In this document: positions 11,953-20,443 of the stretch, one piece after another
Layout of the letters: each line of letters starts with the position of its first letter
How positions within the stretch are numbered: the first letter of the stretch is position 1
Source: Candidatus Polarisedimenticolaceae bacterium
GTDB lineage: Bacteria > Acidobacteriota > Polarisedimenticolia > Polarisedimenticolales > DASRJG01
Direction of reading: 5' to 3'
Assembly (NCBI GenBank): GCA_036376135.1
Contig: DASVAW010000170.1
Location: forward strand, 1-41,019
DNA length: 41,019 nt
Made by a program: the position numbers and the translations under genes
Notes under the pieces: model-generated
Told to the model about the DNA's origin: nothing
Seen by the model: the letters and a program-made list of their open reading frames with translations, nothing else
Databases searched by the model: none

Positions 11953-12297
11953 ATGGCGATCCTGCGAAGCGAGACCGGCGGCGTCCACGTCCTCTCCTGC
12001 ACGGGGGAGCTCGCCCTCGGCAAGGGGGACGCCGAGCTTCTCGCCGCCCTTCAGGAGTCGCTCGAGGCCGGGGCGCGCCGGATCGTGCTCGATCTCGTCC
12101 GGCTCGCCTGGGTGGACAGCGCCGGCGTGGGAGCCATCGTCGCCTGCTCCAAGCGGGCCGCCGACCGCGCCGCGATCGTGCGCGTCGCCGCGGCCCCCGA
12201 CGGCGCGGTCCGTCGGATCCTCGTCGCCACCCACCTCCACAAGGTGTTCGACATCTTCGACGACGTCGCGTCGGCGCGGAAGGACTTCGGCGCCTGA
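11953..12297 (+). CDS. STAS-domain anti-sigma factor antagonist
   Basis: 114-residue single STAS domain of the SpoIIAA/RsbV class. GELALGKGDAELLAAL is the N-terminal strand-helix pair, and RIVLDLVRLAWVDSAGVGAIV carries the phosphorylatable Ser56 in DSxG. In partner switching the unphosphorylated protein binds an anti-sigma kinase and frees a sigma factor; a PP2C phosphatase resets it. A SpoIIE phosphatase gene lies right beside it, convergent with four bases between stops, so the two probably act on each other. The kinase (RsbW type) and sigma factor are not in the window. Convergent placement means the two are not co-transcribed. Confidence 0.88.
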   Translation: MAILRSETGGVHVLSCTGELALGKGDAELLAALQESLEAGARRIVLDLVRLAWVDSAGVGAIVACSKRAADRAAIVRVAAAPDGAVRRILVATHLHKVFDIFDDVASARKDFGA

Positions 12298-12301
12298 GCG
12301 C

Positions 12302-13780
12302 CTACGCCTCGCGGCGCAACACCATCACGGTCACGTCGTCCGCCAGGATCCCCTGCTGGAAGGACTCGACCTCGCGCGCGACCGCGGCGGCGTCCACGGC
12401 CTCGGCATGCTCGAGGAACGACTTCAGCCGGCCCTCGCCGTAGAACTCCCCGTCGTGCGTGCGCGCCTCCGGAACGCCGTCGCTGAAGATCACGAGCGAC
12501 TCCCCCGGCGCGAGGCTCGCCTCCCGCTCCTCGAAGCGGCGGCGCGGGAACATCCCGATCGGCCCGCCGGAGGTCGTGCCGACCTCGGCGGTCTCCCCCG
12601 CCCCCGTCCGCCACGGCGGCGGGTGCGCGGCGTTCACGTAGCGCAGGCGACCGGTCGCGGCGTCGTACCGCCCGACGAACGCGGTGAGATACATGCTGCC
12701 GATCGCCTCGCGTTCCAGGGCGTCGTTGGTGTCGGCCACGGCGTCGGCGAGCGAGGCGTGGGCGAGGAGCGCCCGGCGGAGCACCGCCTTCGAAACCGCC
12801 ATGTACATCGCCGACGGGAGCCCCTTCCCGGAGACGTCCGCGACGACGAAGACCAGCGCCCCGCGGTCCTCGAAGGCGTCGTAGAAGTCCCCCGCGACGT
12901 GACGCGCGGCGAGGTTGCGCGCGGCGAGCGCGAATCCGTCCCCGGTCGGGAGCGACTTCGGGAGCATCGCCGTCTGGATCGTCCGCCCGGCGCGCAGCTC
13001 CCCCTCGACCTTCTCGCGCGCCTCGACGTGGTGTTTCAGGTCGGCGACCATCCGGTTGAACGCCGCGGCGAGGTCGCCGATCTCGTCCCGCGACGCGATC
13101 CCGGTGACGCGCACGTCGAGGTCGCCGCGCCCGAGCTCGCGTACCGCCAGCGCGAGTCGCGACACCGGCCGCGTGACGTGCGACCCCATGCCCCACACCA
13201 CCGCGAGGATCGCGAGGAGCCCGAGTGCGAGGACGGACAGGCCGAGGCGCATCTGGGAGCGGAGGTCCGCGAGGACCGTCGCCTCGGAGGCTCCCGCGAA
13301 GACCGCGCCGCCCGTCGAGGCGAGCGGGACGTGGACGAGCCAACCCGTGTCGCCGGAGAGGGTCCCCTCGACCCTAGCGATCCCGCTGCGGCCGGCGAGC
13401 GCTTCCCGCACCGCGCCCGAGACCTGGGGACGCCCGGCCGCCTCCGCCGAGACGGCGAGGTCCGCGCCCTCCGCGATCCGTCCGTCGGAGTCGTGCACGA
13501 CCTTTCCGGACGCATCGATCACGACGTAGCGCGCTCCGGCCTCGGCGACGCGGCGATCGAACTCGGCGAAGGACGACGCGAGGGCCTCCGCCCCCTGGAT
13601 CCTCACGCGATCGTCCAGCCGCCCCGCGAAGACGCCGACCCGCTCGATCGCGCCGCGCTCCAGGCGCGCGACCGCGCCGCGCTCGAGGCGCGTCGTGAGG
13701 ATCCAGGCCATCGCCCCGTAGACGACGAGCAGCGGGAGACCGATCGACCACAACAGGCGCGCGCGGAACGACAACGCCAT
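12302..13780 (-). CDS. Membrane sensor with HAMP and SpoIIE/PP2C phosphatase domains
   Basis: 492 residues. A first membrane helix at 10-30, an extracytoplasmic region at 31-175 (coiled N-part, then YVVIDASGKVVHDSDG as in dCache-like sensors), a second helix at 178-198, HAMP at 199-252 (PVSRLALAVRELGRGDLDVRV, DEIGDLAAAFNRM), a linker helix, and a SpoIIE phosphatase domain to the end. Metal-binding acidic sites are visible: GDFYD (Asp298, Asp301), ADVSGKG (Asp315), FSDGVPEA and DDVTVMVL. It should dephosphorylate a STAS antagonist in response to an envelope signal. ATG 13780 shares TGATG with the stop of the HtrA gene upstream, which implies translational coupling. The adjacent STAS protein is the obvious substrate, by inference. 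Confidence 0.9.
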   Translation of the reverse strand: MALSFRARLLWSIGLPLLVVYGAMAWILTTRLERGAVARLERGAIERVGVFAGRLDDRVRIQGAEALASSFAEFDRRVAEAGARYVVIDASGKVVHDSDGRIAEGADLAVSAEAAGRPQVSGAVREALAGRSGIARVEGTLSGDTGWLVHVPLASTGGAVFAGASEATVLADLRSQMRLGLSVLALGLLAILAVVWGMGSHVTRPVSRLALAVRELGRGDLDVRVTGIASRDEIGDLAAAFNRMVADLKHHVEAREKVEGELRAGRTIQTAMLPKSLPTGDGFALAARNLAARHVAGDFYDAFEDRGALVFVVADVSGKGLPSAMYMAVSKAVLRRALLAHASLADAVADTNDALEREAIGSMYLTAFVGRYDAATGRLRYVNAAHPPPWRTGAGETAEVGTTSGGPIGMFPRRRFEEREASLAPGESLVIFSDGVPEARTHDGEFYGEGRLKSFLEHAEAVDAAAVAREVESFQQGILADDVTVMVLRREA

Positions 13781-14793
13781 CAGGGCACCGTGTAGATCAG
13801 CTCGACGCGGCCGCCGCCGCGCAGGACGACGACGGAGATCCGCTCCCCGCGCGTCCTCCCCGAGATGAGGGTGCGGATCTTCGCCCCGGCGCCCGTCTCG
13901 GAGAGCTTGACTCCCGCGACCTCGAGGATGACGTCCCCGCCGAGGAGGATCTTCTCGTCCTCGATCGTCGCCTCGACCGACCCGCCGCGGATCCCCATCG
14001 CCGCAGCGGGGGATCCCGAGGCGACGCGTTGCACCAGCAGGCCGACCGGCTGGGGGAAGTTGAGCAGCGCGGCGAGCTCCCCCGCGACCATGATCCCCTC
14101 GAGGCCGGTCCACGGGGGCCGCTCGGTGAGCAGCCGCCGGGCGGTGTTGGACGAGATCGCGAATCCGATCCCCTCGAAGCCGCCCGAGCGGGAGAGGATC
14201 GAGCTGACGATCCCGACGACCTCCCCCTTCATGTTGAACATCGGCCCCCCGGAGTTTCCGGTGTTGATCGCCGCGTCGGTCTGGATCAGCTCCGCCGACT
14301 CGAACCCGCCGAACAGGGCGTTCGCCTCGCGCTTGCCGCTCACGTGCCCGACGCTCAGGCTCTGCGAGATCCCGAGGGGCGCCCCGACGACGAAGACCTG
14401 CTCGCCGATCTCGACGAGGCTCGAATCGCCGGACTTCGCCGCCACGAGCTTCGCCGGGACGCGCTCGAGCTTGAGGAGCGCGAGATCGACCAGCGGCTCC
14501 GAGGCGACGACGCGCGCCTCGATCTCCTCCCCGCTCGCGAGCTCGACGGCGACGGCCTCGGCGGTCTGCACGACGTGCGCCGCGGTGAGCGCCCAACCCG
14601 ACGCGTCGATGATGACCCCGGAGCCGAGGCCCAGGAACGCCGTGGCCCCCGCGGCGGATTTCGCGGGACCGCGCTCGAGGGTGCGGACGGTGACGACCGA
14701 GTCCCTGACCCGCTTGTAGACCTCCGCGACGGTCTGGGCCCGCGCCGCGGGCGCGAGCAGGAGAAGGCAGAGCAGGACACGGATCGGCCGCAT
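13780..14793 (-). CDS. HtrA/DegP-like periplasmic serine protease with PDZ domain
   Basis: 337 residues with a signal peptide ending ARAQ (residue 20). Trypsin-like domain with His73 (LTAAHVV), Asp103 (LVDLALLKL) and Ser181 (NTGNSGGPMFN). A single PDZ domain covers roughly 235-335 (LLVQRVASGSPAAAMGIRGG, GGDVILEVAGVKL). The insert GGFESAELIQTDAAINTGNSGG is typical of the family. Start ATG 14793 follows GGAGG by four bases. It is the first gene of a two-gene minus-strand unit with the SpoIIE sensor. HtrA proteases cut or bind misfolded envelope proteins, so a link between protein damage and partner switching is inferred. Confidence 0.9.
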   Translation of the reverse strand: MRPIRVLLCLLLLAPAARAQTVAEVYKRVRDSVVTVRTLERGPAKSAAGATAFLGLGSGVIIDASGWALTAAHVVQTAEAVAVELASGEEIEARVVASEPLVDLALLKLERVPAKLVAAKSGDSSLVEIGEQVFVVGAPLGISQSLSVGHVSGKREANALFGGFESAELIQTDAAINTGNSGGPMFNMKGEVVGIVSSILSRSGGFEGIGFAISSNTARRLLTERPPWTGLEGIMVAGELAALLNFPQPVGLLVQRVASGSPAAAMGIRGGSVEATIEDEKILLGGDVILEVAGVKLSETGAGAKIRTLISGRTRGERISVVVLRGGGRVELIYTVP

Positions 14794-14846: not shown

Positions 14847-15809
14847 ATGCACCCGCCCGTGCTGCTGCTGCTGCCCGCGCTCGCCGCCGTCCCCACCGCC
14901 GAGGATCTCGACCGCTGCCGAGCGATCGTCGATCCCGCGGAGCGCGTCGCCTGTTACGACGCCCTCGCCGCGACGCTCGCTCCGGAGGAGACGACGCCGA
15001 CGCTCCTCGAGGAGCGCTGGGAGCTCCTCCCGGAGACGAAACACGGCCTCTTCCAGTTCCGGTTCTACCGTCCGAACTTCCTGCTCCCCGCCGTCGCCTC
15101 GGACGAGGTCAACGAGGTGCCGCAGAGCCCGACCCGCCAGAGCACGGACCCGGTCCCCCTGCCGTGGAAACACCTGGAGGCGAAGTTCCAGCTCAGCTTC
15201 AAGACCAAGGTGTGGGAAACCGTGTTCGGAAGGAGCGCCGATCTCTGGGTCGGGTACTCGCAGCAGAGTTACTGGCAGGTGTACACGGCCGAGGCGTCGC
15301 GCCCGTTCCGCGAGACCAACTACGAGCCGGAGCTCGTGCTCACCCTGCCGACCCGGTATCGGATCGCGGGCCTCGACGGGAGGTTGCTCGCCTTCGGCAT
15401 CGTGCACGAATCGAACGGCCGTGCGGAGCCGCTCTCCCGCAGCTGGAACAGGATCTACGCGCTCGTCGGCCTCGAGCGCGGGAACTTCGTCCTGACCCTC
15501 AAGCCCTGGATCCGGCTCGACGAGGAGTACGAGGACGACGACAACCCGGACATGGCCGGCTACGTCGGATACGGCGAGGTCCTCGCCTTCTGGAGGCTCG
15601 TCGAGGGGCACACGCTGGCGTTGCGGGTCCGGCCGACGTTCTCCTTCTCGAAGAGCTGGGGATCGGCGCAGCTCGACTGGCGCTTCCCCGTCGGCCGGCA
15701 CGTCGGCGGCTACCTCCAGGCGTTCACCGGGCACGGCGAGAGCATGATCGACTACAACTTCCGGAAGACCTCGCTCGGCCTCGGCGTCGTGCTGGGGAAC
15801 TGGTACTGA
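14847..15809 (+). CDS. pldA: Outer membrane phospholipase A (OMPLA/PldA-like)
   Basis: 320 residues with a signal peptide, then a short mature N-terminal region and a 12-strand barrel. The catalytic motif HESNGRAEPLSRSWNRIY holds His187, Ser189 and Asn201, with the same spacing as His142, Ser144 and Asn156 of E. coli OMPLA. GYSQQSYWQVY and FRETNYEPEL are family signatures, and it ends in an aromatic residue (NWY) as barrel proteins do for BAM recognition. OMPLA hydrolyses phospholipids that have reached the outer leaflet, so it helps maintain outer-membrane asymmetry under stress. It is divergent from the HtrA-SpoIIE unit and converges on glgP. Confidence 0.93.
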   Translation: MHPPVLLLLPALAAVPTAEDLDRCRAIVDPAERVACYDALAATLAPEETTPTLLEERWELLPETKHGLFQFRFYRPNFLLPAVASDEVNEVPQSPTRQSTDPVPLPWKHLEAKFQLSFKTKVWETVFGRSADLWVGYSQQSYWQVYTAEASRPFRETNYEPELVLTLPTRYRIAGLDGRLLAFGIVHESNGRAEPLSRSWNRIYALVGLERGNFVLTLKPWIRLDEEYEDDDNPDMAGYVGYGEVLAFWRLVEGHTLALRVRPTFSFSKSWGSAQLDWRFPVGRHVGGYLQAFTGHGESMIDYNFRKTSLGLGVVLGNWY

Positions 15810-18241: not shown

Positions 18242-20443
18242 TCAGAACCGCTCCCCGATGACCAGGTACCAGCGGTTCCGGTCCGGCTCGGTCCACCCCC
18301 AGCCGAGGTAAGCGGGGCCCAGCGGCGTCGTCGCTCCCAGGAAGACCGCCCCGCCCGCGCGAAGCGACGGCCACGTGATCGGCTCCCCCTCGAAGTAGGT
18401 GTTGCCCGCCTCGAGCGAGACGCCGACGAAGACACGGTTCTTGAACGAGCCCAGCGGGATCTCGGTGAGGCGCTGGTACCAGGTGAACGCCGCGAACCCG
18501 CCGCGCTCTCCGAACAGCTCGTTGGTCCCGAGCCCCGACAACCTCCCGAGGCCGCCGAGCACCGCCGCCGTGCGCAGGGTCGCGCTCCCGTCCACGACGG
18601 TGGAACCCGCCACCCGGAGGGTGAAGGTGCTCCCTCGGAACTCGAAGGCCTGCTGGAGGTCCGCCTTGAAGATCGTGGAGTCCTCCTCCGCCCCGAAGGC
18701 CGCGAGGTCGCGCTCGGCGGCGACCATCATCGTGGCCCCCTTGCTGGGAAACGCCGCGGCCTCGGCGGTGTCGACGCGGAACCCGGCGCGGAAGCCGCCG
18801 AAGTCCAGGTTGTCCAGCTCGTCGAGGGGGAGCGGGATCCCCACCGTCTGGTCGAAGTCTTCCCGGCCGCGGAACACCCCGACGCGGACTTCCACCTTCT
18901 CCGCGAGGATCCTCCCGAAGTCGACGCCGGCCCACTGGGTGTCGACCTTGAAGTCGCCGATCGCGACCCCGTCCACCCAGAGCTTCTGCGTCTCCCGGGA
19001 GACGTACATCACCGGGGAGAAGAACCACCGCATCCCCCAGTCGAGGGGCTGATAGAACTCCATCGACAGCAGCCGGGTGCTTCCGACCTGCGCGGTGTTC
19101 TTCCACTCGCCCCCACGCGTGTTCACCGCCATCATGCGGTGGCGCGCGATGAGGGTGAAGGTCGCCTCCCCCGCGAGGTCGGTGTCGAGGCTGAGGCCGA
19201 ACTGGAGGCTCCCCCTCGAGTAGGGTTTCCGGGGCGCCGTGAGCTTCAGGGCCGTGCCGCCCTCCACCGGCACGAGCTCGGGCCGGAGGATGCCGAAGTA
19301 GTCGAGCCCCGACAGCAGCACGAGCTGGCGGTCGAGGGCCGCGCGGTCGATCGGCTTTCCGATCGGGAGGTCGAGTCGTTCCAGGACCACGCGATCGTCG
19401 ACCCAGCTCGTGTTCTCGAGGGTGAACTCCCGGAGCGGCTGGGCATGGAGGTCCGCGTGACGGTGGCGCTCGCGGAAAGCGGTCCAGGTCGCGTCGTCCG
19501 CCGAGAAGGCGTCGAGCGCGTTCAGCTTCTCGCGCGCCGCGACCTCGCCGATCCCCACGGCTTCCCTGGCCTTCTCGAACTCGTCGAACTTGATCCCCTC
19601 GAGGTTCGGTCGGATGAGCAGGTCGTCGGGCTTCAGCCGCGTGAGGTCCGCCTCGCGATTGCCGACGGTCAGGAGGGCGGAGAGCTGATCGAGAACCCCC
19701 ATGAACGAGCGCCCCTCGACCTCCGGGTTCAGGGGGCTCGTGATGTCGACGGCGATCAGCCGCTCGGCGCCGAGCGACTGCGCGATCCCGATGGGGAGGT
19801 TCGCCGCGGCACCGCCGTCCACGAGCGTCTTTCCGTCCCGCACCACCGGCGGAAAGGCGCCGGGGACCGACATGCTCGCGCGCATCGCCTCGGCGAGGCT
19901 GCCGTCGCCGATCACCACGGCCTCCCCGTTGCTGAGGTCCATCGCGACCGCCCGGTAGGGAACGGTGAGATCGTCGAAGTCCTGGGCCGCGGTCGCCTTG
20001 TCGACGAGGGCGCGAAGGGTCAGGTCGAGCCGCTGCCCGCCGAGGATTCCCGAGGGCATGTAGACCTTGAGTCCCTTGAACCGCAGCTTCGTGGGCACCA
20101 GGAAGACGTCGTCGTCCTGCTTCCGGCGGAAGGTGCGGTCGCGACGCTCGGGGGCGTCGAAGAAGACCTCGTTCCAGTTGATCCCCGCGAGGATGTCCTC
20201 GATCTCCTGCGGGGAGTAGCCGGCGGCGTAGAGCCCGCCGACGATCGAGCCCATGCTCGTTCCGACGATGAGGTCGGGGACGACGTGTTTCTCCTCGAGG
20301 ACCTTCAGCACGCCGATGTGCGCCGCGCCGCGCGCGCCGCCGCCGCTGAGGACGAGGGCGAGCTTGGGCTTCGCCGGCCCCTCGGCGGCGACGGCACCGC
20401 AGGCGGCGGCGACGAGCAGGGCTCCCCAGAATCGAACGCGCAT
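18242..20443 (-). CDS. Patatin-like phospholipase with C-terminal beta-barrel (type Vd-like)
   Basis: 733 residues, with a signal peptide (1-20) and a patatin domain: GGGARG (34-39), GTSMGS with nucleophile Ser63, and DGG with catalytic Asp209. Residues 350-420 look POTRA-like (LREFTLENTSWVDDRVVLERLDLPIGKPID), followed by a BamA/Omp85-type barrel from about 430 to the final FGE-type aromatic end (LVIGERF). This order matches type Vd autotransporters such as PlpD, in which patatin, POTRA and barrel form one chain. ATG 20443 follows GGAGGAGGGGG. A secreted or surface lipase is inferred. It leads the glgP gene and follows the alpha/beta hydrolase by 89 bases. Confidence 0.9.
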   Translation of the reverse strand: MRVRFWGALLVAAACGAVAAEGPAKPKLALVLSGGGARGAAHIGVLKVLEEKHVVPDLIVGTSMGSIVGGLYAAGYSPQEIEDILAGINWNEVFFDAPERRDRTFRRKQDDDVFLVPTKLRFKGLKVYMPSGILGGQRLDLTLRALVDKATAAQDFDDLTVPYRAVAMDLSNGEAVVIGDGSLAEAMRASMSVPGAFPPVVRDGKTLVDGGAAANLPIGIAQSLGAERLIAVDITSPLNPEVEGRSFMGVLDQLSALLTVGNREADLTRLKPDDLLIRPNLEGIKFDEFEKAREAVGIGEVAAREKLNALDAFSADDATWTAFRERHRHADLHAQPLREFTLENTSWVDDRVVLERLDLPIGKPIDRAALDRQLVLLSGLDYFGILRPELVPVEGGTALKLTAPRKPYSRGSLQFGLSLDTDLAGEATFTLIARHRMMAVNTRGGEWKNTAQVGSTRLLSMEFYQPLDWGMRWFFSPVMYVSRETQKLWVDGVAIGDFKVDTQWAGVDFGRILAEKVEVRVGVFRGREDFDQTVGIPLPLDELDNLDFGGFRAGFRVDTAEAAAFPSKGATMMVAAERDLAAFGAEEDSTIFKADLQQAFEFRGSTFTLRVAGSTVVDGSATLRTAAVLGGLGRLSGLGTNELFGERGGFAAFTWYQRLTEIPLGSFKNRVFVGVSLEAGNTYFEGEPITWPSLRAGGAVFLGATTPLGPAYLGWGWTEPDRNRWYLVIGERF

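Follow-up and report, generated by a model that had tools for sequence, protein, structure and literature searches.

A membrane-bound Cache-HAMP-SpoIIE phosphatase with a shortened sensor beside HtrA and STAS genes in a Polarisedimenticolaceae genome: a probable local grouping of common components

Genes encoding a STAS-domain protein, a membrane-bound SpoIIE-type phosphatase and an HtrA-type protease adjoin each other in the 41,019-nucleotide stretch of Candidatus Polarisedimenticolaceae DNA that was analysed here as a whole (the window), and results of our analysis indicate that, rather than a new stress switch, they probably represent common components that happen to be grouped locally. The explanation which we favour, and which we consider likely though by no means settled, is that the phosphatase is an RsbU-like sensor enzyme in a partner-switching network with dispersed genes, HtrA being co-expressed in one lineage. 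The one point of interest is the shortened sensor of the phosphatase; the protein families are otherwise ordinary. The genes and their overlap are as follows:

11953..12297, plus strand: STAS-domain protein, RsbV/SpoIIAA-like, 114 aa (PF01740, 1.7e-10), with Ser56 in DSAGVG (codon 12118-12120)
12302..13780, minus strand: membrane-bound Cache-HAMP-SpoIIE (PP2C) phosphatase, 492 aa (PF07228, 1.8e-45; HAMP PF00672, 2.6e-15)
13780..14793, minus strand: HtrA-type serine protease, 337 aa (PF13365, 6.5e-31), with an N-terminal hydrophobic signal-like stretch, the triad H73, D103 and S181, and a weak PDZ match
13778..13782, minus strand: TGATG, the overlap between the stop codon of HtrA and the start codon of SpoIIE, read from the sequence

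Open reading frames, Pfam domains and catalytic residues confirm the preliminary description of this locus in placing the three genes side by side, and the TGATG overlap of the HtrA and SpoIIE genes is found where it had been reported. Absent from that description was the orientation of the STAS gene, which is encoded on the other strand and points towards the SpoIIE gene, with 4 bp between their stop codons, and therefore lies outside the HtrA-SpoIIE message. A divergent Nudix/metallo-beta-lactamase gene is located 26 bp from the start of the STAS gene, and a phospholipase A1 gene (14847-15809, plus strand; PF02253, 7e-94) is divergent from HtrA. In a chance model of random gene order, with an assumed 4000 genes including 8 STAS, 13 SpoIIE and 6 trypsin-type genes, a SpoIIE gene touched a STAS gene in 5.0% of 200,000 shuffles and a trypsin-type gene in 3.8%; contact with one gene of each kind arose in 0.0075%, in a test that is post hoc, as the triple was picked because it had already been noticed.

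The preliminary description took the three genes for one module and proposed their co-occurrence in other genomes as a check. In the relatives examined, none closer than the same family, the genes are unlinked, which counts against the module on that description's own terms. The class sample comprised 41 genomes, one of which (G001) belongs to the same family as the window and is already distant (51% for HtrA and 59% for the Nudix/lactamase protein). In the available flanks, profile searches revealed neither SpoIIE nor STAS genes around the HtrA homologues of 15 relatives, and neither HtrA nor STAS genes at 13 SpoIIE loci, one of which (L043) contains an RsbW-type gene. As no STAS gene was found near the four closest orthologues of the phosphatase, a STAS protein as its substrate is without synteny support in the immediate clade. 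A scan of named genomes with an alignment of orthologues, where a single-protein query had matched nothing, gave at least 423 confirmed stretches, and the best 80 of these were searched (78 of them new, L097 and L104 being identical to L033 and L034). Within their flanks of up to 10 kb, often shorter, none of these best 80 loci contains HtrA, 30 contain a STAS gene and 28 an RsbW-type gene, and in 19 of the 80 the STAS gene lies at most 3 kb from the SpoIIE domain. Two further loci (L210 and L211) have no HtrA or STAS gene in their flanks.

At the thresholds used, HtrA and the phosphatase also each occur without the other. The genome with the nearest relative of the phosphatase (G024) has no HtrA match at 1e-40, and the same-family genome encodes HtrA without a match to such a phosphatase at 1e-40. 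Three genomes (G012, G017 and G020) have both genes on different contigs, with no partner match on the side of the overlap, where the contig extends about 0.3 kb upstream of the phosphatase gene in the case of G017. These comparisons cover, for HtrA, the best matches of 15 of the 21 matching relatives, taken with wide flanks (the set excludes the other six relatives and the second, weaker matches that four genomes have), and, for the phosphatase, full loci of 13 of the 17 matching relatives, the other four being represented by tblastn in 1.5 kb flanks; the flanks often end at contig ends (e.g., L075, L086, L088, and L033). The HtrA profile recovers two of the five other Trypsin_2 matches of the window's own genome (C126 and C146) and misses those on C158 and C119 and a partial, below-cut-off match on C5, so remote trypsin-type genes could escape the linkage test. 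Similarly, with at most 10, at most 38 or, across the phylum, at most 3 candidates scored per genome, a weaker-ranked phosphatase orthologue could be missed.

We also considered whether the STAS gene is tied to the divergent Nudix/lactamase gene and rejected this, as the loci of 19 relatives, with flanks reaching at most 1.5 kb, contain no STAS gene; in the same-family genome a different gene occupies the position of the STAS gene. In another genome (G005; L206, 5821-9896), roughly 1 kb separates the Nudix/lactamase orthologue from a different SpoIIE gene, which is 32% identical over 228 residues and has a start that looks FHA-like by eye; this SpoIIE gene is probably unrelated and placed there by chance.

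The trypsin-like domain of the window HtrA has an intact His-Asp-Ser triad, as have proteases of the DegS/DegP type, with which it also shares the signal-like N-terminus. It differs from them in scoring below the curated cut-offs of both the Do family (TIGR02037, 213.4 vs. 416.2 bits) and the NCBIfam DegS model (120.3 vs. 422.95 bits), and its PDZ match remains under the Pfam cut-off (PF13180, 24.4 bits vs. 27). Matches to this protein at E up to 1e-40 are present in 22 of 60 genomes, the window's own included. In 4 of the 15 HtrA loci of relatives, all of family f8, a patatin gene is found near HtrA (adjoining it in L077, L078, and L082, and one called gene away in L079), and Omp85 was found in L077, the one of the four put to Pfam; in the window, a patatin gene is located 3.4 kb from HtrA, at 18242-20443. 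We did not build on patatin as a conserved HtrA neighbour, since the genome has several matching places and the gene order differs. Two HtrA homologues (L087 9623-10618 of G027 and L089 2233-3225 of G031) have, in a local alignment, Q in the column of the catalytic histidine and, in that of the serine, A and L, respectively, and are possibly inactive proteases.

Candidates for the components that the favoured explanation requires are present in the window's genome, an assembly of 179 contigs that is 97.6% complete. Profile searches returned 13 SpoIIE matches, eight STAS matches, one of them below the cut-off, and 28 matches to HATPase_c_2, five of which stand far above the rest and represent strong RsbW-type candidates. 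No RsbW-type kinase was found within the window, so there is no linked set of phosphatase, STAS protein and kinase; RsbW-type genes are, as the preliminary description had supposed, located elsewhere, on contigs C153, C164, C167, C54, and C110. One contig (C167) contains SpoIIE, RsbW-type and STAS genes in a single cluster, and two others (C153 and C54) have one STAS-RsbW pair each. The best own-genome paralogue of the window STAS protein is the one of C153 (36% identity); there, the kinase and the STAS protein match the RsbW/SpoIIAB and antagonist models, respectively, the latter alone above the cut-off. A gene judged by eye to be mutS adjoins the STAS-RsbW pair of C153 (L045 9832-10642) and also such a pair in the same-family genome (L208 7307-8091), and the pair on C54 (L046 8758-10054) adjoins a 142 aa protein that by eye resembles an ECF sigma factor. 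The window STAS protein itself is a stand-alone domain (PF01740, 41 bits vs. a cut-off of 22.6) with a phosphorylatable serine: Ser56, singled out in the preliminary description, is indeed present and aligns with the DSAG serine of TM1442. Its score for the NCBIfam anti-sigma antagonist model TIGR00377 is under the cut-off (43.1 vs. 53.45 bits).

By its domain, the phosphatase is assigned to the SpoIIE/RsbU-type PP2C enzymes (PF07228, 155.7 bits vs. a cut-off of 25, with the metal-binding aspartates in place). Hydropathy alone indicates two hydrophobic stretches, at about 9-27 and 179-200, which bracket an extracytoplasmic region. The catalytic SDG is at 433, and another SDG occurs at 98. The parts of the protein and the two sites at which it differs in length from its orthologues are the following:

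12311..12865, minus strand: SpoIIE/PP2C catalytic domain (PF07228), in which D298, D315, D434, D481, and D482 are unchanged in four orthologues
13034..13183, minus strand: HAMP domain, residues 200-249 (PF00672, 2.6e-15)
13286..13531, minus strand: predicted single PAS-like Cache lobe, residues 84-165 (model mean pLDDT 82.7; WalK/TlpB-like fold)
13528..13529, minus strand: point after residue 84 at which the alignment gives four orthologues 109-126 extra residues
13021..13022, minus strand: point after residue 253, in the linker between HAMP and phosphatase domains, at which the alignment gives 4 of 4 orthologues seven extra residues

The closest relatives of this phosphatase within the class are that of G024 (51%) and those of G012, G017, and G020 (41-43%); phylum-wide, 9 of 396 genomes, the window's own included, matched it at E up to 1e-45, with three candidates scored per genome. 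In a tree of 66 phosphatase domains, the window and G024 proteins are sisters (100/99 support) in a 32-row clade (97/95) that includes none of the 10 own-genome paralogues in the tree, several of which are long-branched, with a warning of the program about false joins among them; L097, L104, L136-L174, and weak own-genome hits on C63 and C55 were omitted. The G024 genome has two SpoIIE genes tail to tail (L031 8173-9963 and 9968-11236), one of HAMP type and one of GAF type, and the latter groups with a paralogue of the window's genome (L094) with 100/100 support. The phosphatase of L102, a record titled as a Klebsiella pneumoniae MAG, clusters with those of environmental Gammaproteobacteria, and the record is perhaps mislabelled.

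While the window phosphatase is 492 residues long, its four orthologues in the alignment comprise 621 (with an uncertain start), 636, 641, and 641 residues, and the difference is found mainly at two sites: the orthologues have 109, 125, 126, and 126 additional residues within the periplasmic region, and the linker of each is longer by exactly seven. As judged from the alignment, the segment missing after residue 84 can be read as the membrane-distal Cache lobe. Three of the four orthologues have a Pfam match to dCache, each time under the cut-off. A first PDC domain scores above its cut-off in G012 and in L099, a gammaproteobacterial relative, the families matched in the sensors of relatives being PF22673 and PF02743; at E 0.1 Pfam matches nothing in the window sensor, nor does it find a match in that of G024. 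The whole-protein model of the phosphatase is weak (mean pLDDT 67.6). The model of the sensor, built with 17 relatives whose rows were trimmed to the membrane-proximal part, reaches the mean pLDDT given above and comprises long helices, one PAS-like lobe and the second transmembrane helix, in this order. Its top fold match is the extracellular domain of WalK (4ywz; Foldseek E 2.9e-4, Z 14.3, 135 residues, 3.2 A, 11% identity), with TlpB (3ub7, Z 13.8) tied and many Cache domains close behind; rows within 1 Z count as tied in this search, and a common fold does not show a common function. According to the model, then, the sensor is a single Cache domain that is missing the membrane-distal lobe. 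Comparison with the four relatives suggests a loss in the window protein rather than a gain in the others, and one heptad fewer in the linker would keep the register. Coiled-coil linkers have been described as relaying signals from HAMP and other domains to phosphatase dimers of this kind (PMC12143880).

Phosphatases of known partner-switching systems (RsbU, RsbP, and SpoIIE) have in common with the window protein the PP2C domain with metal-binding aspartates after a linker, and a genome that also encodes STAS proteins and RsbW-type kinases. The window differs from them by the membrane-bound Cache-HAMP input, by the unlinked kinase and by a STAS substrate that is putative here. SiaA of Pseudomonas aeruginosa also combines HAMP with a PP2C phosphatase, and its model (NF038263) is the best, albeit weak, NCBIfam match of the window phosphatase (52.9 bits vs. 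a cut-off of 700), with 658 positions vs. 492 aa. WalK, which shares the fold of the modelled sensor, is itself a histidine kinase. We found no paper pairing SpoIIE with HtrA or DegP in the open-access literature, which is not proof of absence, and none there joining SpoIIE, Acidobacteria, STAS, and HAMP.

In the favoured explanation, whose steps beyond the gene structure we infer from the families, a periplasmic cue would act on the single Cache domain, and the change would reach the PP2C domain via the second transmembrane helix, HAMP and the short coiled-coil linker. Once active, the phosphatase would dephosphorylate the serine of a STAS antagonist, either the convergent STAS protein or the kinase-paired one of C153, or both, and the unphosphorylated antagonist would capture an RsbW-type kinase encoded elsewhere, freeing the target of this kinase. 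HtrA would be a secreted quality-control protease on the same message as the phosphatase in this lineage, the link between them being co-expression, which is probable. The frequencies of STAS and RsbW-type genes among the best 80 of 423 loci, together with the absence of HtrA from them, count for this explanation, as do the domains and catalytic residues, the 15 HtrA loci lacking SpoIIE and STAS genes in their available flanks, the single Cache fold of the modelled sensor, and the 13 SpoIIE, eight STAS and five strong RsbW-type matches of the genome; the lack of a kinase in the window and of STAS genes near the four closest orthologues, the score of the STAS protein under the TIGR00377 cut-off and the rarity of the triple count against it. 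The idea that a periplasmic signal controls the phosphatase, put forward in the preliminary description, is retained as far as the sensor is concerned, as this faces the periplasm with a single Cache domain; the part played in it by HtrA is not, as that link consists of a stop/start overlap in one genome.

The preliminary description had gone further, to an envelope-stress switch in which HtrA, or the damaged protein that it sees, would govern phosphatase activity towards the adjacent STAS protein. The overlap makes a functional tie or direct control of the phosphatase by HtrA possible, and protease and phosphatase both look active from their residues; moreover, the STAS gene is 4 bp away, random gene order rarely produces the triple, and the solved structure nearest to the sensor fold is that of a sensor kinase, with chemoreceptors tied. 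However, the sensor fold is that of Cache, a domain that mostly binds small molecules, and not of PDZ, and this switch is highly unlikely in view of the 15 HtrA, the 13 SpoIIE and the best 80 of 423 wider loci without linkage, and of the separate occurrence of the two genes at the thresholds used. The sensor may instead have been re-wired: with its distal Cache lobe and the linker heptad lost, the phosphatase would be constitutive or driven by a protein partner, and HtrA would be merely co-expressed. The shortening at both sites relative to all four orthologues points in this direction, as do the first-PDC or dCache matches in three of them and in one gammaproteobacterial relative as opposed to none for the window sensor. 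TlpB and CitA have one Cache each. The Cache sensors of both are among the structural matches listed with bound ligands, the remaining lobe of the window protein is predicted to fold confidently, and the derived state of the short form is drawn from four relatives; we regard such re-wiring as unlikely.

The substrate of the phosphatase could also be other than a STAS antagonist. In P. aeruginosa, according to PMC7647112, whether SiaC is phosphorylated at T68 is governed by SiaA as phosphatase and SiaB as kinase, and the fold of SiaC is likened there to that of anti-sigma antagonists; the substrate of a phosphatase built along these lines may thus be other than a classical RsbV protein. The weak SiaA match and the lack of STAS genes near the four closest orthologues agree with such a substrate, but STAS proteins are plentiful in the genome, and no SiaC match was obtained in the 41 class genomes, in a search whose control was also silent and which does not establish absence. 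We consider this reading very doubtful. More improbable still is a combination in which the phosphatase, having lost the distal lobe and the heptad, came under the co-translated HtrA, so that envelope proteolysis would replace a ligand in setting the STAS switch.

If the three genes were a module, they would represent a protease-coupled serine phosphatase switch, and the linkage evidence is against this. The significance of the locus lies in the phosphatase itself: a dCache-HAMP phosphatase apparently cut to a single Cache domain, with a linker shorter by a whole heptad, would be a natural test case for the shortening of sensors that still signal.
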